Source of the DNA: a virus
IMG/VR virus record: IMGVR_UViG_3300039448_000007
Coordinates: 1 to 25,857 of that record
DNA: 25,857 nt
Direction: 5' to 3' (one strand)
Notes under the pieces: model-generated
What the model was told of the DNA's origin: nothing
The model's database searches: none
The model's input: only the letters and a program-made list of their open reading frames with translations
Position numbers and translations under genes: made by a program
In this document: positions 12,096 through 22,258 of the stretch, piece by piece
Layout of the letters: each line of letters opens with the position of its first letter
Numbering within the stretch: the stretch's first letter is position 1

Positions 12096-12755
12096 TTATT
12101 CGGCAAGAGCTTTTTTCCAAGGCGTGCGGGGCGGCAGCTCGTGCGAGACATTCCAACGCGACATATCATTTTGAATTTGCAGACAAACTCGAAGCTCCAG
12201 CAGCGCTGACCACCACTGCAAATAATTGCGACGCGCCGCTGCGATCTGATCCGCAGCAGGACGGAACACAACCGGACACACCCGAATGTCATGGCGCTTC
12301 ACCTTGCGACCACTGCAGTCAGCGACCTGCCCGAGCGTTTCAGTTACAGCACGCCGACCGTGCTGGTTCTCGCGCCACCCGATGGGCTCACATCGCGTGA
12401 CCGCCCCGACATAGGCTTCCGGCACAGCACGCGCACGCGCCAACTCAGCGATCTGCACCGCCATGCGCCGGCCACCGCAGCCTTCGGGCAGCACGGCCAC
12501 CGCTGAGGCAACGATGTCAGCATCATGGTCCGGATATGAACGGCCACCGCCATCGATCTTGCAGCCCAGCAAACCGCGCTGCGCCATGCGGTAGGCGTTG
12601 CCTACATGGCCATAGCCCGGCGCCAATGTGCCTTCATCCTCGAAGTCGATCGAGGCGCACTCATCGGCGAATGCCCATTCCAACAGCCGCTGGATAGAGA
12701 TCCGCTTGCGCACGCGGCCCATCGCCTCGGCCTTCAGTGGTGCCATCTGCATCAT
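12096..12755 (-). CDS. Phage protein of unknown function (219 aa)
   Basis: A 219-aa protein starting MMQMAPLKAEAMGRVRKRIS. The N-terminal part RISIQRLLEWAFADECASIDF looks like a short helical DNA-associated segment. The middle contains HDADIVASAVAVLPEGCGGRRMAVQIAELARA. The C-terminal part has a Trp pair (NYLQWWSALLEL). I recognise no family or catalytic motif. It overlaps the previous gene by four bases (ATGA) and is the last gene before the terminator, so it belongs to the early-middle leftward transcript. Its location just before the late block is where a late regulator or antiterminator would sit, but nothing in the sequence proves that. Confidence 0.85.
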   Translation of the reverse strand: MMQMAPLKAEAMGRVRKRISIQRLLEWAFADECASIDFEDEGTLAPGYGHVGNAYRMAQRGLLGCKIDGGGRSYPDHDADIVASAVAVLPEGCGGRRMAVQIAELARARAVPEAYVGAVTRCEPIGWRENQHGRRAVTETLGQVADCSGRKVKRHDIRVCPVVFRPAADQIAAARRNYLQWWSALLELRVCLQIQNDMSRWNVSHELPPRTPWKKALAE

Positions 12756-13372
12756 GCGCCTTTCTCATCCAGCCAGCCGCGGAGCATGGCTTCGGTTTCG
12801 TGATAGCGCCGCAGCCAGTTCCGCTCTTCGCCAGTCACCAGCACGCCACGCGCTTGCCGATCCTCAATCAACTCGACCCGACGCGCATAGTCCGCGGCCC
12901 GCTCGTTGATCCCGGCCCATTCGCGATCCGCGAGCGGTGGCCGCTTGTGGCTCTTCCAGAAGGCATATTCAGCGACCAATCGGCCCTGCACTGCGGCTGC
13001 CTTGCGACCGGCTGCCGAGACGAACCACGACCGCAGCCCCGGCACATCCTCCAACGGCATGCGCTCTCGCGCCTCAGCAAATCCCAGAAGGCTGACCCGG
13101 CTGGGCCAGAACACCTTGTTCGTGCCTTCGCCCTTGGTGCGCATGCAGGCAGCTAGCACCCGTAGGGACTCGTCCGAGAGATAACCGAGATCATCCGCCA
13201 TCTGATCCAGCTTGCGCCGCTGATCGTCAGCCGAGGTGTGATGCTTGAACCGCATCCCATCCTTGACCAGTGGATCGATGAAGAGCCTGCGGACCCGGGC
13301 CCGGTTGGTTTCCTGCGGCGCGGCGGCTTCCTGCGCGCTGTCGGTGCTTGTGATCTGATCCATTTGCCCCAT
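12752..13372 (-). CDS. Phage protein of unknown function (206 aa)
   Basis: A 206-aa, mostly helical and highly charged protein. It starts at ATG 13372, with a second in-frame ATG at 13363 (MDQITSTD) that has a more usual distance to the AGGGG upstream. Recognisable blocks are RRLFIDPLVKDGMRFKHH, LSDESLRVLAACMRTKGEG, WPSRVSLLGFAEARER and a C-terminal NWLRRYHETEAMLRGWLDE. It may be a replication accessory protein given its place just after the putative replication gene and origin-like repeats (inference). No known motif is visible. It overlaps the next gene by ATGA. Confidence 0.85.
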   Translation of the reverse strand: MGQMDQITSTDSAQEAAAPQETNRARVRRLFIDPLVKDGMRFKHHTSADDQRRKLDQMADDLGYLSDESLRVLAACMRTKGEGTNKVFWPSRVSLLGFAEARERMPLEDVPGLRSWFVSAAGRKAAAVQGRLVAEYAFWKSHKRPPLADREWAGINERAADYARRVELIEDRQARGVLVTGEERNWLRRYHETEAMLRGWLDEKGA

Positions 13373-13395
13373 TCCCCTTTTCTCAGCTTCGCAAG

Positions 13396-13404
13396 TTATC
13401 CACA
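13396..13404. other. DnaA box
   Basis: TTATCCACA at 13396-13404 is a perfect match to the strict bacterial DnaA-box consensus (TTATNCACA). It covers the stop codon of the 65-aa ORF. It lies 127 bases from the start of the phased 11-bp repeats, and the stretch between holds further TGTC-type repeats. A single box can arise by chance, but the neighbourhood makes a replication role plausible. Confidence 0.6.
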
Positions 13405-13593
13405 GGCGATCCGCCTGCTGTGGTACGCAACGGTCTTTGTCTGTGTTTTGTCTCTGTCTATGTCCCTGTCGTGTAGGACACTTCGAGACAGATTAAGCAG
13501 GTTGCTGATTTCATTGGACAATCCTGAAACACTGTCCTCAGACTGTCCTGCAACTGTCTCAAGAGTGTCCACCGGACAGTTCACGACACTCAT
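13396..13593 (-). CDS. Small ORF over the iteron region (65 aa)
   Basis: ATG at 13593 overlaps the upstream replication-like gene by four bases (ATGA), and GGGGTGAG lies close before it. The 65-aa product begins MSVVNCPVDTLETVAGQSED and ends with a basic HSRRIACG tail. The central stretch HDRDIDRDKTQTKT is produced by a hexanucleotide repeat, and the first third lies over the 11-bp iteron-like repeats. I know no family. The overlap supports translation, but the DNA repeats suggest the sequence is under selection as DNA. The ORF may be a simple leader or may be non-functional. Confidence 0.5.
   Translation of the reverse strand: MSVVNCPVDTLETVAGQSEDSVSGLSNEISNLLNLSRSVLHDRDIDRDKTQTKTVAYHSRRIACG
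13449..13470. repeat. Four TGTC units at 6-base spacing
   Basis: TGTC occurs at 13449, 13455, 13461 and 13467, exactly six bases apart (units TGTCTC, TGTCTA, TGTCCC, TGTCGT). They share the TGTC core of the nearby 11-bp repeats, so the whole 13.44-13.59 kb stretch looks like one binding region. Confidence 0.6.
13531..13580. repeat. Iteron-like 11-bp tandem repeats plus inverted copy
   Basis: Four directly adjoining 11-bp units start at 13531, 13542, 13553 and 13564: ACTGTCCTCAG, ACTGTCCTGCA, ACTGTCTCAAG and AGTGTCCACCG. An inverted GGACAGT follows at 13574-13580, forming AGTGTCC-ACC-GGACAGT. Further weaker cores are GGACAAT at 13516 and GACACT at 13585. The 11-bp period is about one helical turn and is not a multiple of three, so it cannot result from a repeated peptide. 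This suggests protein binding to one DNA face, as in iterons of phage and plasmid origins. Confidence 0.75.
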
Positions 13594-14237
13594 GGTCTCA
13601 CCCCGCGCCGAATGCCCTGACGCATATCCATCATGTGGTCCGACCACGCGAGCATCGCCTGCTCTACCCATGACGTGTTCCGGTATCCGACATCCTGCTT
13701 GACTAGCCACTCATCCATCCAGCGCACTGCGGCGTCGTTCTTGGCGAGATCAGCTTGCAAGCCCGCGACCGTGGTGCGCAGTCGCTGGACGCGCTTGACG
13801 GTGTTGGCTGCTTCCATCTTGGCGCGGTTGTCCTCTTTGCGAGACACCGCCTCGATCAGACTGTCCAACACCACCGGATGCATCAGCCGCAGCTCATCGC
13901 CGCAGCGGCACAGCCGCCACTTGTGCAACGGTCCGTACTCCAGCTGGCACAGGGCGCGGAAATCGCCCTCTGGTACCATCAAGAGTTTGGCCAGAACCTC
14001 CATGTCATTCGGCAGCGTGCCGACAGGGGATTGGTCATAGGCGATGTTGATCAGATCGAAGTAGAGCGCCCGGCTCTCTGGCCGCGCCTTCAATCGCATG
14101 TCCGAATTTAGCCAGCGACGCCGCTCCCACACCATGAAGAAGTGGCTGTTGAGCCGATCATCACGGCTCAGCGGATACGCATCGATTTCCGCAGCCTCCA
14201 CCAGTTCGAAGGCTGCCCGTCCCACTCTTAGGTCCAT
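13590..14237 (-). CDS. Putative replication protein (DUF1376-like)
   Basis: A 215-aa protein from ATG 14237, which overlaps the preceding stop (TGATG). A TTG at 14240 is the only nearby alternative. The N-terminal half has the feel of phage replication proteins of the DUF1376/winged-helix type: FFMVWERRRWLNSDMRLKA, then ESRALYFDLINIAYDQSPVGTLPND, followed by MEVLAKLLMV and a second HTH-like region. Next comes CRCGDELRLMHPVVLDSLIEA, then a coiled coil with KMEAANTVKRVQRLRTTV and a C-terminal helix. It would bind the origin and recruit the host helicase. The adjoining iteron-like repeats fit this idea. The assignment is from pattern, not from a certain motif. Confidence 0.6.
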   Translation of the reverse strand: MDLRVGRAAFELVEAAEIDAYPLSRDDRLNSHFFMVWERRRWLNSDMRLKARPESRALYFDLINIAYDQSPVGTLPNDMEVLAKLLMVPEGDFRALCQLEYGPLHKWRLCRCGDELRLMHPVVLDSLIEAVSRKEDNRAKMEAANTVKRVQRLRTTVAGLQADLAKNDAAVRWMDEWLVKQDVGYRNTSWVEQAMLAWSDHMMDMRQGIRRGVRP

Positions 14238-14761
14238 CAATTCCCCCCCAAATCCGAAATGTTCGACGCTTTGCGCGCCTGTTGATCGCGGCGATTACGC
14301 TCGCGCATGACAGCGCCAAGAATGGCCTGCAGGGCAGACGGGGATTGCCGCCTGAGCGCGAGCGAGACGTAGCCCCGCTTGAAACCGAGAACCCGATCGG
14401 CCTCGGACATTGATGCAAAGCGCATACCCGCGAGCATCACCGGCTTGGATTTCGCTCCGTTGTAGCGTTGCGGCCGTGCGAGGTTGTCAAGCTTGCCGCG
14501 CATCATCGCGGTATGCACCGCGGAGCGCGTAACACCGAAGTAAGCCGCTGCTGTCTTGACGGAATCGAAACGTTGGCCCCGGATCAGAACTGGCATAGGC
14601 TCGACACCGCCTTGACCTGTGCCAACCCGGTGCAGAGTGCCCCGGCGGGCCGCCACACGGATGGCCTGATCGCTAACGCCGTGCGCCGCAGCTGCTGCCT
14701 GAGTTGTTGGGTAAATAGTGCCCCGTATATTAAGGTCAGTGTATCTCAGCCGAGCATCCAT
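14237..14761 (-). CDS. Protein with three HTH-like (IENR1/NUMOD1-type) repeats
   Basis: A 174-aa basic protein. The start at 14761 is favoured by GGAGG seven bases upstream and by a TGATG overlap with the methyltransferase. Three related units are visible at about residues 11-48 (GTIYPTTQAAAAAHGVSDQA), 58-95 (RGQRFDSVKTAAAYFGVTRS) and 108-141 (AGMRFASMSEADRVLGFKRG). Each has a beta lead with an aromatic residue followed by an AA..G(V/F) helix-turn-helix. Such modules occur as DNA-binding tails of intron-type homing nucleases, but no nuclease domain is attached here. It may be a sequence-specific DNA-binding regulator or replication accessory factor. The C-terminus is basic and helical. Confidence 0.75.
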   Translation of the reverse strand: MDARLRYTDLNIRGTIYPTTQAAAAAHGVSDQAIRVAARRGTLHRVGTGQGGVEPMPVLIRGQRFDSVKTAAAYFGVTRSAVHTAMMRGKLDNLARPQRYNGAKSKPVMLAGMRFASMSEADRVLGFKRGYVSLALRRQSPSALQAILGAVMRERNRRDQQARKASNISDLGGN

Positions 14762-15465
14762 CAGGCGACCTCCGCCATAGCGGCCTGGACGCGGGCACAA
14801 GCCGCTTCAAAATGCTCAGGGTTCTTCTCGATCCCAATGGCACGGCGACCCAGCTGAGTCGCTGCAATCAGCGTGGTGCCGGACCCCATGAAGGGATCCA
14901 GCACCAGATCGCCCGCGCGGCTGGAATTTGCGATATAGCGCCCCATGAGCTCGACCGGCTTTTGCGTCGGATGGACGGCCCCCGCAGGGCGCGCCATGCG
15001 CGTGATCCGTTTATCGCCACCGTAGGTGATGTCTCTTGCGCGGCCTTTCCACAAATACAGCGTGAACTCGCCATCTTTCATGTAATAGCGCGTTCTGGAG
15101 GGGACGATCTTGTCCCAAGTCAGCAGACTGTGAAACCGGAACCCTGCCCCCAGAAACCCCGCATGCGCGGCAAACAGGTTCTTGTCATCGCACATCACAT
15201 AGGCGTCGGCATCCGGTGACAGGGCGCGGTAGATCGGCCCGCCGATATCGGCCCATTCGACCACATCCATCAGCAAACCGCTGTTATCGTAATTAGCAGC
15301 GGATAGTTTGCCGCCCATCGCACCGACACGGTTGCCGCCCGAGGTCAGCCGGTAGGGCGGATCAGTGACCAGCAAATCAGCCTGCCCTTCAAGTTCCCGC
15401 AGAACTTCCAGCGCATCACCGAGATAGAGCCTGCACGGCCCGATATGACGCACGGCAACGCTCAC
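14761..15465 (-). CDS. DNA methyltransferase (N6-adenine/N4-cytosine type)
   Basis: A 234-aa enzyme with catalytic motif DPPY at residues 35-38 (LLVTDPPYRLTSGG) and the SAM-binding motif DPFMGSGTT at 190-198, preceded by HPTQKPVELM. The order IV then I places it in the beta-type amino-methyltransferases. The putative target-recognition part lies at about 80-160. No partner nuclease is near, so it is a solitary phage enzyme, perhaps for protecting phage DNA or for regulation. It begins at GTG 15465 in a GTGA overlap with the ParB-like gene. It lacks the C-terminal extension of cell-cycle enzymes such as CcrM, so the target site cannot be inferred. Confidence 0.92.
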   Translation of the reverse strand: MSVAVRHIGPCRLYLGDALEVLRELEGQADLLVTDPPYRLTSGGNRVGAMGGKLSAANYDNSGLLMDVVEWADIGGPIYRALSPDADAYVMCDDKNLFAAHAGFLGAGFRFHSLLTWDKIVPSRTRYYMKDGEFTLYLWKGRARDITYGGDKRITRMARPAGAVHPTQKPVELMGRYIANSSRAGDLVLDPFMGSGTTLIAATQLGRRAIGIEKNPEHFEAACARVQAAMAEVA

Positions 15466-16322
15466 ACCGGCTTCCTCAGCCCTTTGTTGAAGTCGCGCAG
15501 CAGCAACTCACCGCCACGCTGTGTGGTTTGCCCACCAGTCAGCTTGACCATGTGGCTGGCATTATCCTTCAAAGTTTCGAAATCCGTTCGGACCAGCACC
15601 TCATGGAGCCGATCGAGATCGCCCCCCTTTTCGATGACCCGCGCCACGACAATGGACGTGACCTCGATAGCAAATGCTGTCAGCAGGTTCTTTTGATCCG
15701 GTTGAGCGTCACGCAGCATTTCCAAAACGGTAAAGGCAATGCCACGCCCGTGTTTCTTAACGATACGCTCCAGCTTGGACACGGCGCGTGTCTGGTGCGG
15801 AGCAAGCGCCGTCCCTGCGGCGACATCGGTGCTGATGCCGAGATCATTGAGAATGCCATCGACGGTTACGGCCTCCGCATCCCCTGCCGTGACACGCGCG
15901 CGGAACTTGTCGATTGAGGCGACAGAACTGCGCGTCGAATTGATACCCACAAAGGCTACCGCCTGCCCCACGACATTGGCGCGAACAACGATACAGGGAA
16001 CCGATACAACGCCGAGCGCCGAAGCTGCTATCGCTCGATGCTGCCCGTCGATGACAGCATAGTTCCCGACGTCCAACTCTGCGACGATAAGGGCCCCAAA
16101 CTTCACCCAATCGAAATCCCGGATCAGTTTGCGAATCTTCGTCCGGCCATTGTCCGAGATCATACGTTGATAGCGCCCGTCGACGATCAACTGACCAGGC
16201 GCCAGGAATTCGGTCCGGATTACATCCTCCGGGGCAGGAACACCGCCGCACTGCGCCGCTGGCGCTACAACCTTCAAGTCGCACACCACTTGGGCGACAG
16301 CCATCTGTCCACGTTCGGTCAC
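15462..16322 (-). CDS. ParB-like nuclease-domain protein (DGQHR type)
   Basis: A 286-aa protein with a ParB/Srx N-terminal domain: VDGRYQRMI near residue 48, then YAVIDGQHRAIAAS with DGQHR at 92-96. The rest, about 130-286, is helical and has no recognised HTH. ParB/Srx domains are nucleotide-dependent modules, and phages often fuse or pair them with DNA methyltransferases, as here with a 4-base GTGA overlap. It starts at GTG 16322 because GGAG lies eight bases upstream; ATG 16304 has only a weak site. Possible roles are DNA modification, control of the methyltransferase or DNA binding. Confidence 0.82.
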   Translation of the reverse strand: MTERGQMAVAQVVCDLKVVAPAAQCGGVPAPEDVIRTEFLAPGQLIVDGRYQRMISDNGRTKIRKLIRDFDWVKFGALIVAELDVGNYAVIDGQHRAIAASALGVVSVPCIVVRANVVGQAVAFVGINSTRSSVASIDKFRARVTAGDAEAVTVDGILNDLGISTDVAAGTALAPHQTRAVSKLERIVKKHGRGIAFTVLEMLRDAQPDQKNLLTAFAIEVTSIVVARVIEKGGDLDRLHEVLVRTDFETLKDNASHMVKLTGGQTTQRGGELLLRDFNKGLRKPV

Positions 16323-20410: not shown

Positions 20411-22258
20411 TTGACCGACCAATCCCCCATGTCGACCACCCGCACTGTGCCGCTTGATGATCTCTCACTGCACGCACTCAATCCGCGTCAGGTTCACGAC
20501 CCCGAAGACATCGCCGCGCTGGCGAAATCGCTGGCCATCAATGGCCTGATGCAGAACCTCAATGCGCTGGATGAGGGCGGAAAGTTCGGCATTGTCGCTG
20601 GCGGCCGGCGGTTGGCAGCACTGCTTCACCTGCGCGCCCAAGGCAGCGATTTCGCAGACAGCGCGGACATCGACTTCGAGGCAATCCCGGTGAACGTGAC
20701 CACCGATCCCGCGCTGGCCCGCAGCTGGGCGGGATCGGAAGGCGCCACACAGCGCCCGCTCCACCCGGCTGATGAAATCCGCGCCTATGCCGCCATGGCT
20801 GACCATGGCAGCGATGCCGATCAGATCGCAGCGGCATTCGGCCAGACCCGGGCCCACGTCCAGCGCCGCCTGAAACTGGCAGGATTGTCGGCCTCCACGC
20901 TCGATGCTCTACGATCCGGCGACATCACCCTCGACATCGCTCAGGTGCTCACCGTGACCGGCGGCGCAGAGCGCGAGGCACAGGCTTTGAAGCTGGCGAC
21001 AAAGCATCGCTATTCTGCCGATCGGCTGCGCCACCAGCTGATGGAAGGCAATGTGCCTTCATCGGATCGCCGCGTGCAGTTTATTGGACTGGACCTTTAC
21101 CGGGCCGAGGGCGGCACGCTCGACGAGGACCTGTTCAGCGATCAATCCCGGCTCCACAACGCGGAACTGATCCATCAGCTGTTTGAGACAAAGCTGATCA
21201 AGGCTGCCGAAGACCTGCAAGCAAGCGAGGGTTTCGCCCGGGCCATTCCTGTTTTTGAATCGTGGGTTGGCTACCAGCACACCGAAGGCATGACGCGGAT
21301 TTACCGTCAGGCCATCGACTTGCCCGAAGCGGATGCCATCCGACATGCAGAGCTTTGCGAACTTGGCGAAACGCAGACCTTCACCGACGCCGAGAAGGCT
21401 GAGTTCGACGCGCTCGAAGAGCGGATGCTTGGCGACTACAAAGACGAAGAGCGGGAGGCTGCCACCGTCTTCGTACTGGTGGACCGCGATGGCAAGCTAG
21501 AGGTCAGCTCCGCCTACCTGCCCGCTCAACAGCGCGCCGGCTCAAATTCCGGCGCTGAGGACGATGAGGTCGAGAAGATCGCTCCGAAGCCACCGATCAC
21601 CCAAGCCGGGATCGAGGACTTGCGCCGTATTGAGCGGCTCGCCCTGCAAGCACGGATGATCGCCCAGCCAGAACTGGCCCTCGATCTGCTTGCCTTCCAG
21701 CTTTGGACCGAGATGCCAAGTTTCACCGGCCCGTTCAACATCCGCGCTGAAGAGCAGCTGAGCCTGCCCGAAGTTGCCAATAGCGTCACCGTCGACAAGC
21801 GCGTGACCGGCGAAGACGACGATCAAGCTGCTGACCCACGCGAAGACTTCGACGTGGCTTTCGATGCCTTCATCGCCAAAGGCAAAAAGCACCGCAATCA
21901 GGTGCTGACCACCCTGCTCGCCCGGACCATGAACGCGCCCTTTGCCAGCGCAGCCAACCGCGCTCTGCTGCGTCGGCTGGATGTCAGCCCTCGCAGCATC
22001 TGGACACCCACAGCCGAGAGCCTGTTCAACGCCTGCCGCTCCGAGATGCTGGACAGCATCTGGCGCGAACTGGTGGTGACCGAAGAGCGAGAGGATCAAA
22101 TGGAACGCTTTGCCAAGCTGAAGGTCGGCGAGAAACGCAAGGAACTCGAAAAACTGTTCAACGACGCCAGCACGCAGGAAGCCTTGCGGCTGAGCCGCGC
22201 CGAGGTCGCAGCGATCGACAGCTGGCTGCCTGAGGTCATGAGGGGAGAGGTTGCGTGA
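20411..22258 (+). CDS. Large orphan ParB-family protein
   Basis: A 615-aa protein with a ParB N-terminal domain (about 15-110: VPLDDLSLHALNPRQVHDPE, GLMQNLNALDEGGKFGIVAG, GRRLAALLHL) and a KorB-like HTH (about 118-180: PADEIRAYAAMADHGSDADQ, then AFGQTRAHVQRRLKLAGLS). A long C-terminal part follows that I cannot assign. The start is probably TTG 20411, as GGAGAAGG lies just upstream; ATG 20429 has no RBS. There is no ParA next to it, and the length is well above the usual 280-350 of chromosomal ParB. Such large ParB proteins occur on plasmids and integrative elements. It may bind DNA for partition, silencing or regulation. Confidence 0.88.
   Translation: MTDQSPMSTTRTVPLDDLSLHALNPRQVHDPEDIAALAKSLAINGLMQNLNALDEGGKFGIVAGGRRLAALLHLRAQGSDFADSADIDFEAIPVNVTTDPALARSWAGSEGATQRPLHPADEIRAYAAMADHGSDADQIAAAFGQTRAHVQRRLKLAGLSASTLDALRSGDITLDIAQVLTVTGGAEREAQALKLATKHRYSADRLRHQLMEGNVPSSDRRVQFIGLDLYRAEGGTLDEDLFSDQSRLHNAELIHQLFETKLIKAAEDLQASEGFARAIPVFESWVGYQHTEGMTRIYRQAIDLPEADAIRHAELCELGETQTFTDAEKAEFDALEERMLGDYKDEEREAATVFVLVDRDGKLEVSSAYLPAQQRAGSNSGAEDDEVEKIAPKPPITQAGIEDLRRIERLALQARMIAQPELALDLLAFQLWTEMPSFTGPFNIRAEEQLSLPEVANSVTVDKRVTGEDDDQAADPREDFDVAFDAFIAKGKKHRNQVLTTLLARTMNAPFASAANRALLRRLDVSPRSIWTPTAESLFNACRSEMLDSIWRELVVTEEREDQMERFAKLKVGEKRKELEKLFNDASTQEALRLSRAEVAAIDSWLPEVMRGEVA

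Follow-up and report, generated by a model that had tools for sequence, protein, structure and literature searches.

In plasmids RK2 and F, the iterons are bound in double-stranded form by Rep proteins of the winged-helix type, which also bind one strand of the unwinding element, and DnaA boxes lie nearby (PMC4081077). In phage lambda and in Stx phages, the iterons are bound by the phage's own O protein (PMC7466680). The locus described here shares with RK2 oriV/TrfA and F oriS/RepE a winged-helix initiator (predicted in the present case), direct repeats, an AT-rich element, and a nearby DnaA box (PMC4081077), whereas it differs from them in its phage setting, its single DnaA box, an A-rich block built of 6-bp units rather than 13-mers, and an initiator that belongs to a different family. 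With lambda, it shares short iterons adjoining an AT-rich tract and the order of an initiator gene and a second replication-module gene, located after cI/cro/cII-like genes (PMC7466680). The lambda origin, with four iterons, lies inside gene O, whereas the present array lies outside the coding region, between two genes. Lambda iterons are about 18–19 bp long; unlike lambda, the units here are 10–11 bp long, and the DnaA box occurs in about half of the family.

The Paracoccus phages vB_PsuS_Psul1 and vB_PbeS_Pben1 carry a homologous initiator and downstream gene in the same architecture as the locus described here. According to the available passages of the paper on the Paracoccus virome, both were recovered as mitomycin-C-induced phages, and phages with this type of origin are therefore productive (PMC6536676). 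In those passages, Pben1_p32 is annotated as a replication protein, none was found in Psul1, for which p21 was suggested, and no origin is described; the word "iteron" is missing from the main text. A search of the open-access literature, with subscription journals mostly outside its scope, returned no description of the origin formed by this array.

The array and its flanking genes

The window analyzed here is the complete stretch of IMG/VR virus record IMGVR_UViG_3300039448_000007, 25,857 bases in length. Its genes are arranged in a siphovirus-like manner: tape measure, capsid, portal, terminase, and HNH precede the early region, in which CI/Cro-like and CII-like regulators are encoded at 16.6–17.8 kb. 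No tyrosine integrase was found in the window record, which may be a fragment. The relatives of the locus are almost all from Rhodobacteraceae, and the host family was therefore inferred to be Rhodobacteraceae. The segment at 13396–13590 is, judging from its sequence and that of its relatives, very probably the replication origin of a temperate phage. The features are as follows.

12752..13372, minus strand: downstream gene, 206 aa, predicted all-helical, family present in all loci
13396..13404, plus strand: DnaA box TTATCCACA, which reads TGTGGATAA in the initiator-gene sense; the window has no other exact match
13434..13470, minus strand: A-rich, T-poor block with a 6-bp step, GACAGG GACATA GACAGA GACAAA (ACACAGACAAAGA), candidate DNA unwinding element
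13476..13491: two further cores, CTGTCTCGAAGTGTCC in the rep sense, at the start of the most conserved stretch, TGTCCTRCACGACAGNGACA
13516..13589: iteron block, in which four direct units follow one another at intervals of exactly 11 bp
13531: 11-bp unit 1, ACTGTCCTCAG
13542: 11-bp unit 2, ACTGTCCTGCA
13553: 11-bp unit 3, ACTGTCTCAAG
13564: 11-bp unit 4, AGTGTCCACCG
13574–13580: inverted GGACAGT, after the four units
13590..14240, minus strand: candidate replication initiator, 216 aa, with a PHROG 22470 match, a winged-helix-like model, and a homologue in all 68 loci
14237..14800, minus strand: 187-aa multi-HTH/NUMOD-like protein, encoded next to the initiator gene on its upstream side, in the position of Psul1_p21
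15462–16322 and 20411–22258: two ParB-like proteins

The four 11-bp units, the inverted GGACAGT, and the perfect DnaA box, all reported in the initial annotation, were confirmed by direct reading of the sequence. The array follows closely on the 3' end of the 216-aa gene, inside a conserved non-coding gap of ~200 bases, and its block reads GTGTC, CTGTCC, GGACACT, GAGACAGT, GGACAGT, GGACAGT, and ATTGTCC in the rep sense. The 241-nt gap contains 14 copies of TGTC/GACA and 7 of TGTCC/GGACA, counts that were reached in 0 of 5000 dinucleotide shuffles and 0 of 5000 shuffles, respectively. The window average predicts 1.55 TGTC/GACA per 200 bp, and no other 200 bp of the window are as rich in this motif as the array region, the runner-up bin containing 6.

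The helical spacing of direct repeats expected of an iteron origin was observed both in the four 11-bp steps of the window and in its relatives. Across 39 relatives, the spacing of adjacent cores in the same orientation peaked at 10 bp (88 pairs) and 11 bp (45 pairs), bearing out the 11-bp period that had been proposed, and a second peak at 6 bp (77 pairs) arose from the GACANN repeat of the A-rich block. In the 39 loci with the protein closest to that of the window, the window included, TGTCC/GGACA occurred 6.4 times per gap, compared with 0.8 in shuffles. The additional TGTC/GACA cores noted between the iterons and the DnaA box are indeed present, but the 6-bp GACANN repeat formed by them had been overlooked. 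The proposed extent of the origin, iterons plus DnaA box, was likewise too small, as the origin also includes the strand-asymmetric A-rich block at 13434–13470. A GC-skew change, which had been suggested as a check, was absent at the array, the skew being negative on both sides; in a phage, this is weak evidence that neither supports nor refutes an origin.

The 216-aa protein matches the PHROG 22470 family "replication protein" (E 2e-6). Its score for Pfam DUF1376 (PF07120) was 16.9 bits, under the gathering cut-off of 30.1, which was not reached by the relatives tested either (at most 21.3 bits), suggesting only distant kinship with DUF1376. An AlphaFold2 model (pLDDT 83.6), for which, as for the other structure model, the alignment was built from the window and the collected loci only, exhibited the order helix-strand-helix-helix-strand-strand, with a predicted winged-helix-like domain at about residues 54–120 followed by a long helix. 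In the PDB, no significant match was found by fold or sequence, and the best, non-significant fold matches were winged-helix regulators of the MarR/ArsR type. The family match and the winged-helix-like model together support the earlier proposal that the neighboring gene is the replication-protein candidate. The 206-aa downstream protein was modeled as confidently helical (pLDDT 92), with no significant fold or sequence match in the PDB; its position suggests that it is perhaps a replication partner, as a candidate helicase loader. In Pfam and PHROG, neither protein matches lambda O or P.

Conservation of the layout among relatives

With the 216-aa protein as the query, 24 viral and 18 genome loci were obtained, and the gap directly after the gene carries the array wherever the sequence reaches far enough. 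In the gene sense, the gap consists of three parts: TGTCC/GGACA iterons at 10–11 bp steps, some of them inverted; a very conserved run, TGTCCTgcacGACAggGACAtaGACAgaGACAaaaca, with GACA every 6 bases; and a leader, which in many loci contains the DnaA box TGTGGATAA and has GCTGAGAA shortly ahead of the next start codon. Exact matches to the array core were found by DNA search in 24 contigs, in all of which the downstream gene follows the core; the upstream gene lies 15–115 nt before the core in 23 of them, and the remaining contig is cut by the locus edge. Loci with diverged initiators were gathered with the downstream family as the query. After removal of near-duplicates, 68 non-redundant loci with gaps of 120–280 nt were kept. 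An upstream homologue of the 216-aa protein is present in 68/68, and nearly all exhibit the layout of upstream protein, iterons, A-rich block, DnaA box (where present), and downstream protein.

An A+T-rich element adjoining the repeats, as expected of an iteron origin, is seen in the base composition of the 68 loci. Between −100 and −81 nt relative to the downstream start, in the gene sense, the A content is 0.59, T 0.07, and GC 0.34, with an AT skew of +0.78, whereas the GC content around the block is ~0.5–0.6. This composition fits the expectation for an unwinding element in which the strand is fixed, and the unwinding role is putative. Conservation of the block extends to more loci than that of the DnaA box. 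Tested by itself within the single window, the DnaA box was not significant. Among the 68 loci, TGTGGATAA was found in 37, against a shuffle mean of 0.02, and was absent in 31; in the 37 loci it occurs in one orientation only, 32–46 nt before the downstream start. Because of this excess, the single orientation, and the narrow position, the DnaA box appears to be a real but dispensable element. The GCTGAGAA motif, which immediately precedes the downstream gene's ribosome-binding site (13373–13395 in the window), was also found in 37/68 loci, against a shuffle mean of 0.37.

For Psul1, the protein is 58% identical to that of the window and is accompanied by the same array. The comparison points to p22 as the Psul1 initiator and to the p22–p23 gap as its origin, whereas Psul1_p21 (L045 8507–8986), the protein named as the putative replication protein, corresponds by position to 14237–14800 of the window and not to the initiator. 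For Pben1, the protein is ~29% identical, and CTGAAAT/CTGTAAT repeats occur at the same place; despite the different repeats, the A-rich GACA-containing block and the DnaA box are kept. For Achromobacter CF418P1, a protein match with 26% identity, no comparable array was found beside the gene.

Co-variation of the iterons with the adjacent gene

The sequence of the iterons differs according to the group of the upstream protein across the 68 loci, as listed below.

TGTCC: the group of the window
CTGAAAT/GTGAAAT: Pben1, L062, L098, L103, and L107
GGAAGG: L067, L070, L080, L093, and L095
GGAACAG: L054
TCACGGAA: L109 and L120
GTAACAG: L082

Single-linkage clustering merged all 68 upstream proteins into one family, and average linkage and a matrix test were therefore chosen. 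In rank Mantel tests of iteron k-mer similarity against protein similarity, the iterons correlated with the upstream protein with r = 0.77 (P = 0.0005), part of which is physical linkage, because any sequence beside a gene shares some of its history. Given the downstream gene, the partial correlation with the upstream protein was 0.75, whereas that with the downstream gene given the upstream protein was −0.03, indicating no positive relation. The co-variation persisted outside the group of the window (r = 0.57, 28 loci) and within the TGTCC group (r = 0.50). The correlation with the upstream protein became weaker farther from the iterons: it was 0.75 for the iterons themselves, 0.59 in the A-rich block, and 0.26 in the DnaA-box leader. 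This gradient must in part be plain linkage, because the iterons lie nearest to the gene.

Thus, a repeat specific to the adjacent initiator, a further property of iteron origins, is observed as sequence co-variation (r = 0.75–0.77, P = 0.0005). This is the outcome predicted for the check named in the initial annotation, which asked whether changes in the 11-mers accompany changes in the replication gene among relatives, and it was obtained in 68 non-redundant loci. Near-identical repeats of one array that change in concert with a protein display, at the level of sequence, the behavior of binding sites, and the repeats and the gene would therefore be an exchangeable pair, like lock and key.

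In the family alignment, the segment WERRRWLNSDMRL (residues 38–50 in the window) hardly varies within the TGTCC group and differs in loci with changed iterons, which makes it a lead to the specificity residues. In L078 and L086, WDIDDWLYS replaces WERRRWLNS, and the iterons are altered too (GGCAACA, GACACTTTT); the change in the protein is a candidate specificity change.

Alternative explanations and proposed initiation steps

The array could instead consist of operator sites from which the 216-aa protein, as a regulator, controls the downstream operon. The position of the array directly before the next gene, the resemblance of the protein to MarR/ArsR-type regulators, non-significant as it is, and the phasing of the repeats, which would also fit cooperative repressors, are in line with this explanation. 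It is nevertheless unlikely, since the protein matches a replication family, a search of the region returned no sigma-70-like promoter, a −10 element on the sense strand would hardly fit into the T-poor block (T 7%), and an operator would need neither the A-rich block nor the DnaA box. More generally, no promoter or terminator was found in the array region. A role in partition, with the array as a centromere to which a ParB-like protein would bind, is still less probable. Repeated short sites are usual at centromeres, and the window encodes the two ParB-like proteins listed above, but no ParA was found among the window ORFs scanned, no ParB is annotated in the region inspected in Psul1 and Pben1, both of which carry the array, the repeats co-vary with the winged-helix gene beside them across 68 loci, and the DnaA box and A-rich block would be left unexplained.

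The greater folding stability of the 195-nt stretch compared with shuffles (z −4.0 sense, −3.4 antisense) might indicate a structured RNA or antisense control element. However, when TGTC/GACA was kept and only the other bases were shuffled, the z of the window was only −0.5, and several relatives were at or above zero, with a minority below −3. The stability is thus mostly explained by the pairing of inverted motif copies; in addition, both strands fold alike and no Rfam match was found. We therefore rejected an RNA element as highly improbable. The least credible explanation is a small gene of 65 codons with a repetitive protein sequence, for which the open frame at 13396–13593 on the minus strand, starting just after the upstream gene, is the only indication. 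A frame of at least 50 aa occurs in 13/39 relatives and is missing in 26/39, the gap lengths fall into all three residue classes modulo 3, and no significant family match was found; this candidate was rejected because the frame is unconserved.

The tracking of the initiator gene by the iterons in 68 non-redundant loci supports the interpretation of the segment as an origin. Read in this way, the array is a well-delimited iteron origin, not a new kind of origin. By analogy with RK2, F, and lambda, the order of the steps is most likely as follows. The 216-aa winged-helix protein would bind duplex DNA at the phased TGTCC/GGACA iterons; once occupied, the array would destabilize the neighboring A-rich, T-poor block (13434–13470), leading to melting. 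The initiator may then hold one single strand of the block, as suggested by the strand asymmetry and the 6-bp GACANN repeat. Host DnaA at the distal DnaA box would assist in phages having one, and the replicative helicase would be loaded next, possibly with the 206-aa protein.

A more far-reaching proposal, which we consider doubtful, is that the proteins form a diverse winged-helix initiator family with a readable recognition code, in which at least six iteron classes are paired with variants differing notably around residues 38–60 (WERRRWLNS and its variants), and that the 6-bp GACANN block is a previously undescribed single-strand loading element, recognized by the initiator and not by DnaA.

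Through this comparison, a probable origin and a likely initiator can be assigned to a widespread group of temperate Rhodobacteraceae phages that includes Psul1, whose authors, in the available passages, could not identify a replication protein (PMC6536676). The 68 loci constitute a natural panel of matched initiator–iteron pairs with shared neighbors, and origin specificity and module exchange are therefore testable by swapping. The panel is also natural material for the study of an initiator–iteron recognition code, and laboratory vectors for marine alphaproteobacteria could draw compatible replicons from it.

A record titled Nocardioides marinus (L028) carries a Rhodobacteraceae-type replication module and is probably a misnamed or contaminated assembly. 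At L124:3200–3500, a complete TGTC-type array with its A-rich block and DnaA box precedes another A-rich block and another DnaA box, which resemble those of the CTGAAAT class; the tandem has the appearance of a site at which two origin modules recombined. The contig IMGVR_UViG_2687453539_000006 contains two loci with the module (L125:1340–1640 and L126), and in L125 a doubled TGTCC array is arranged around a DnaA box.
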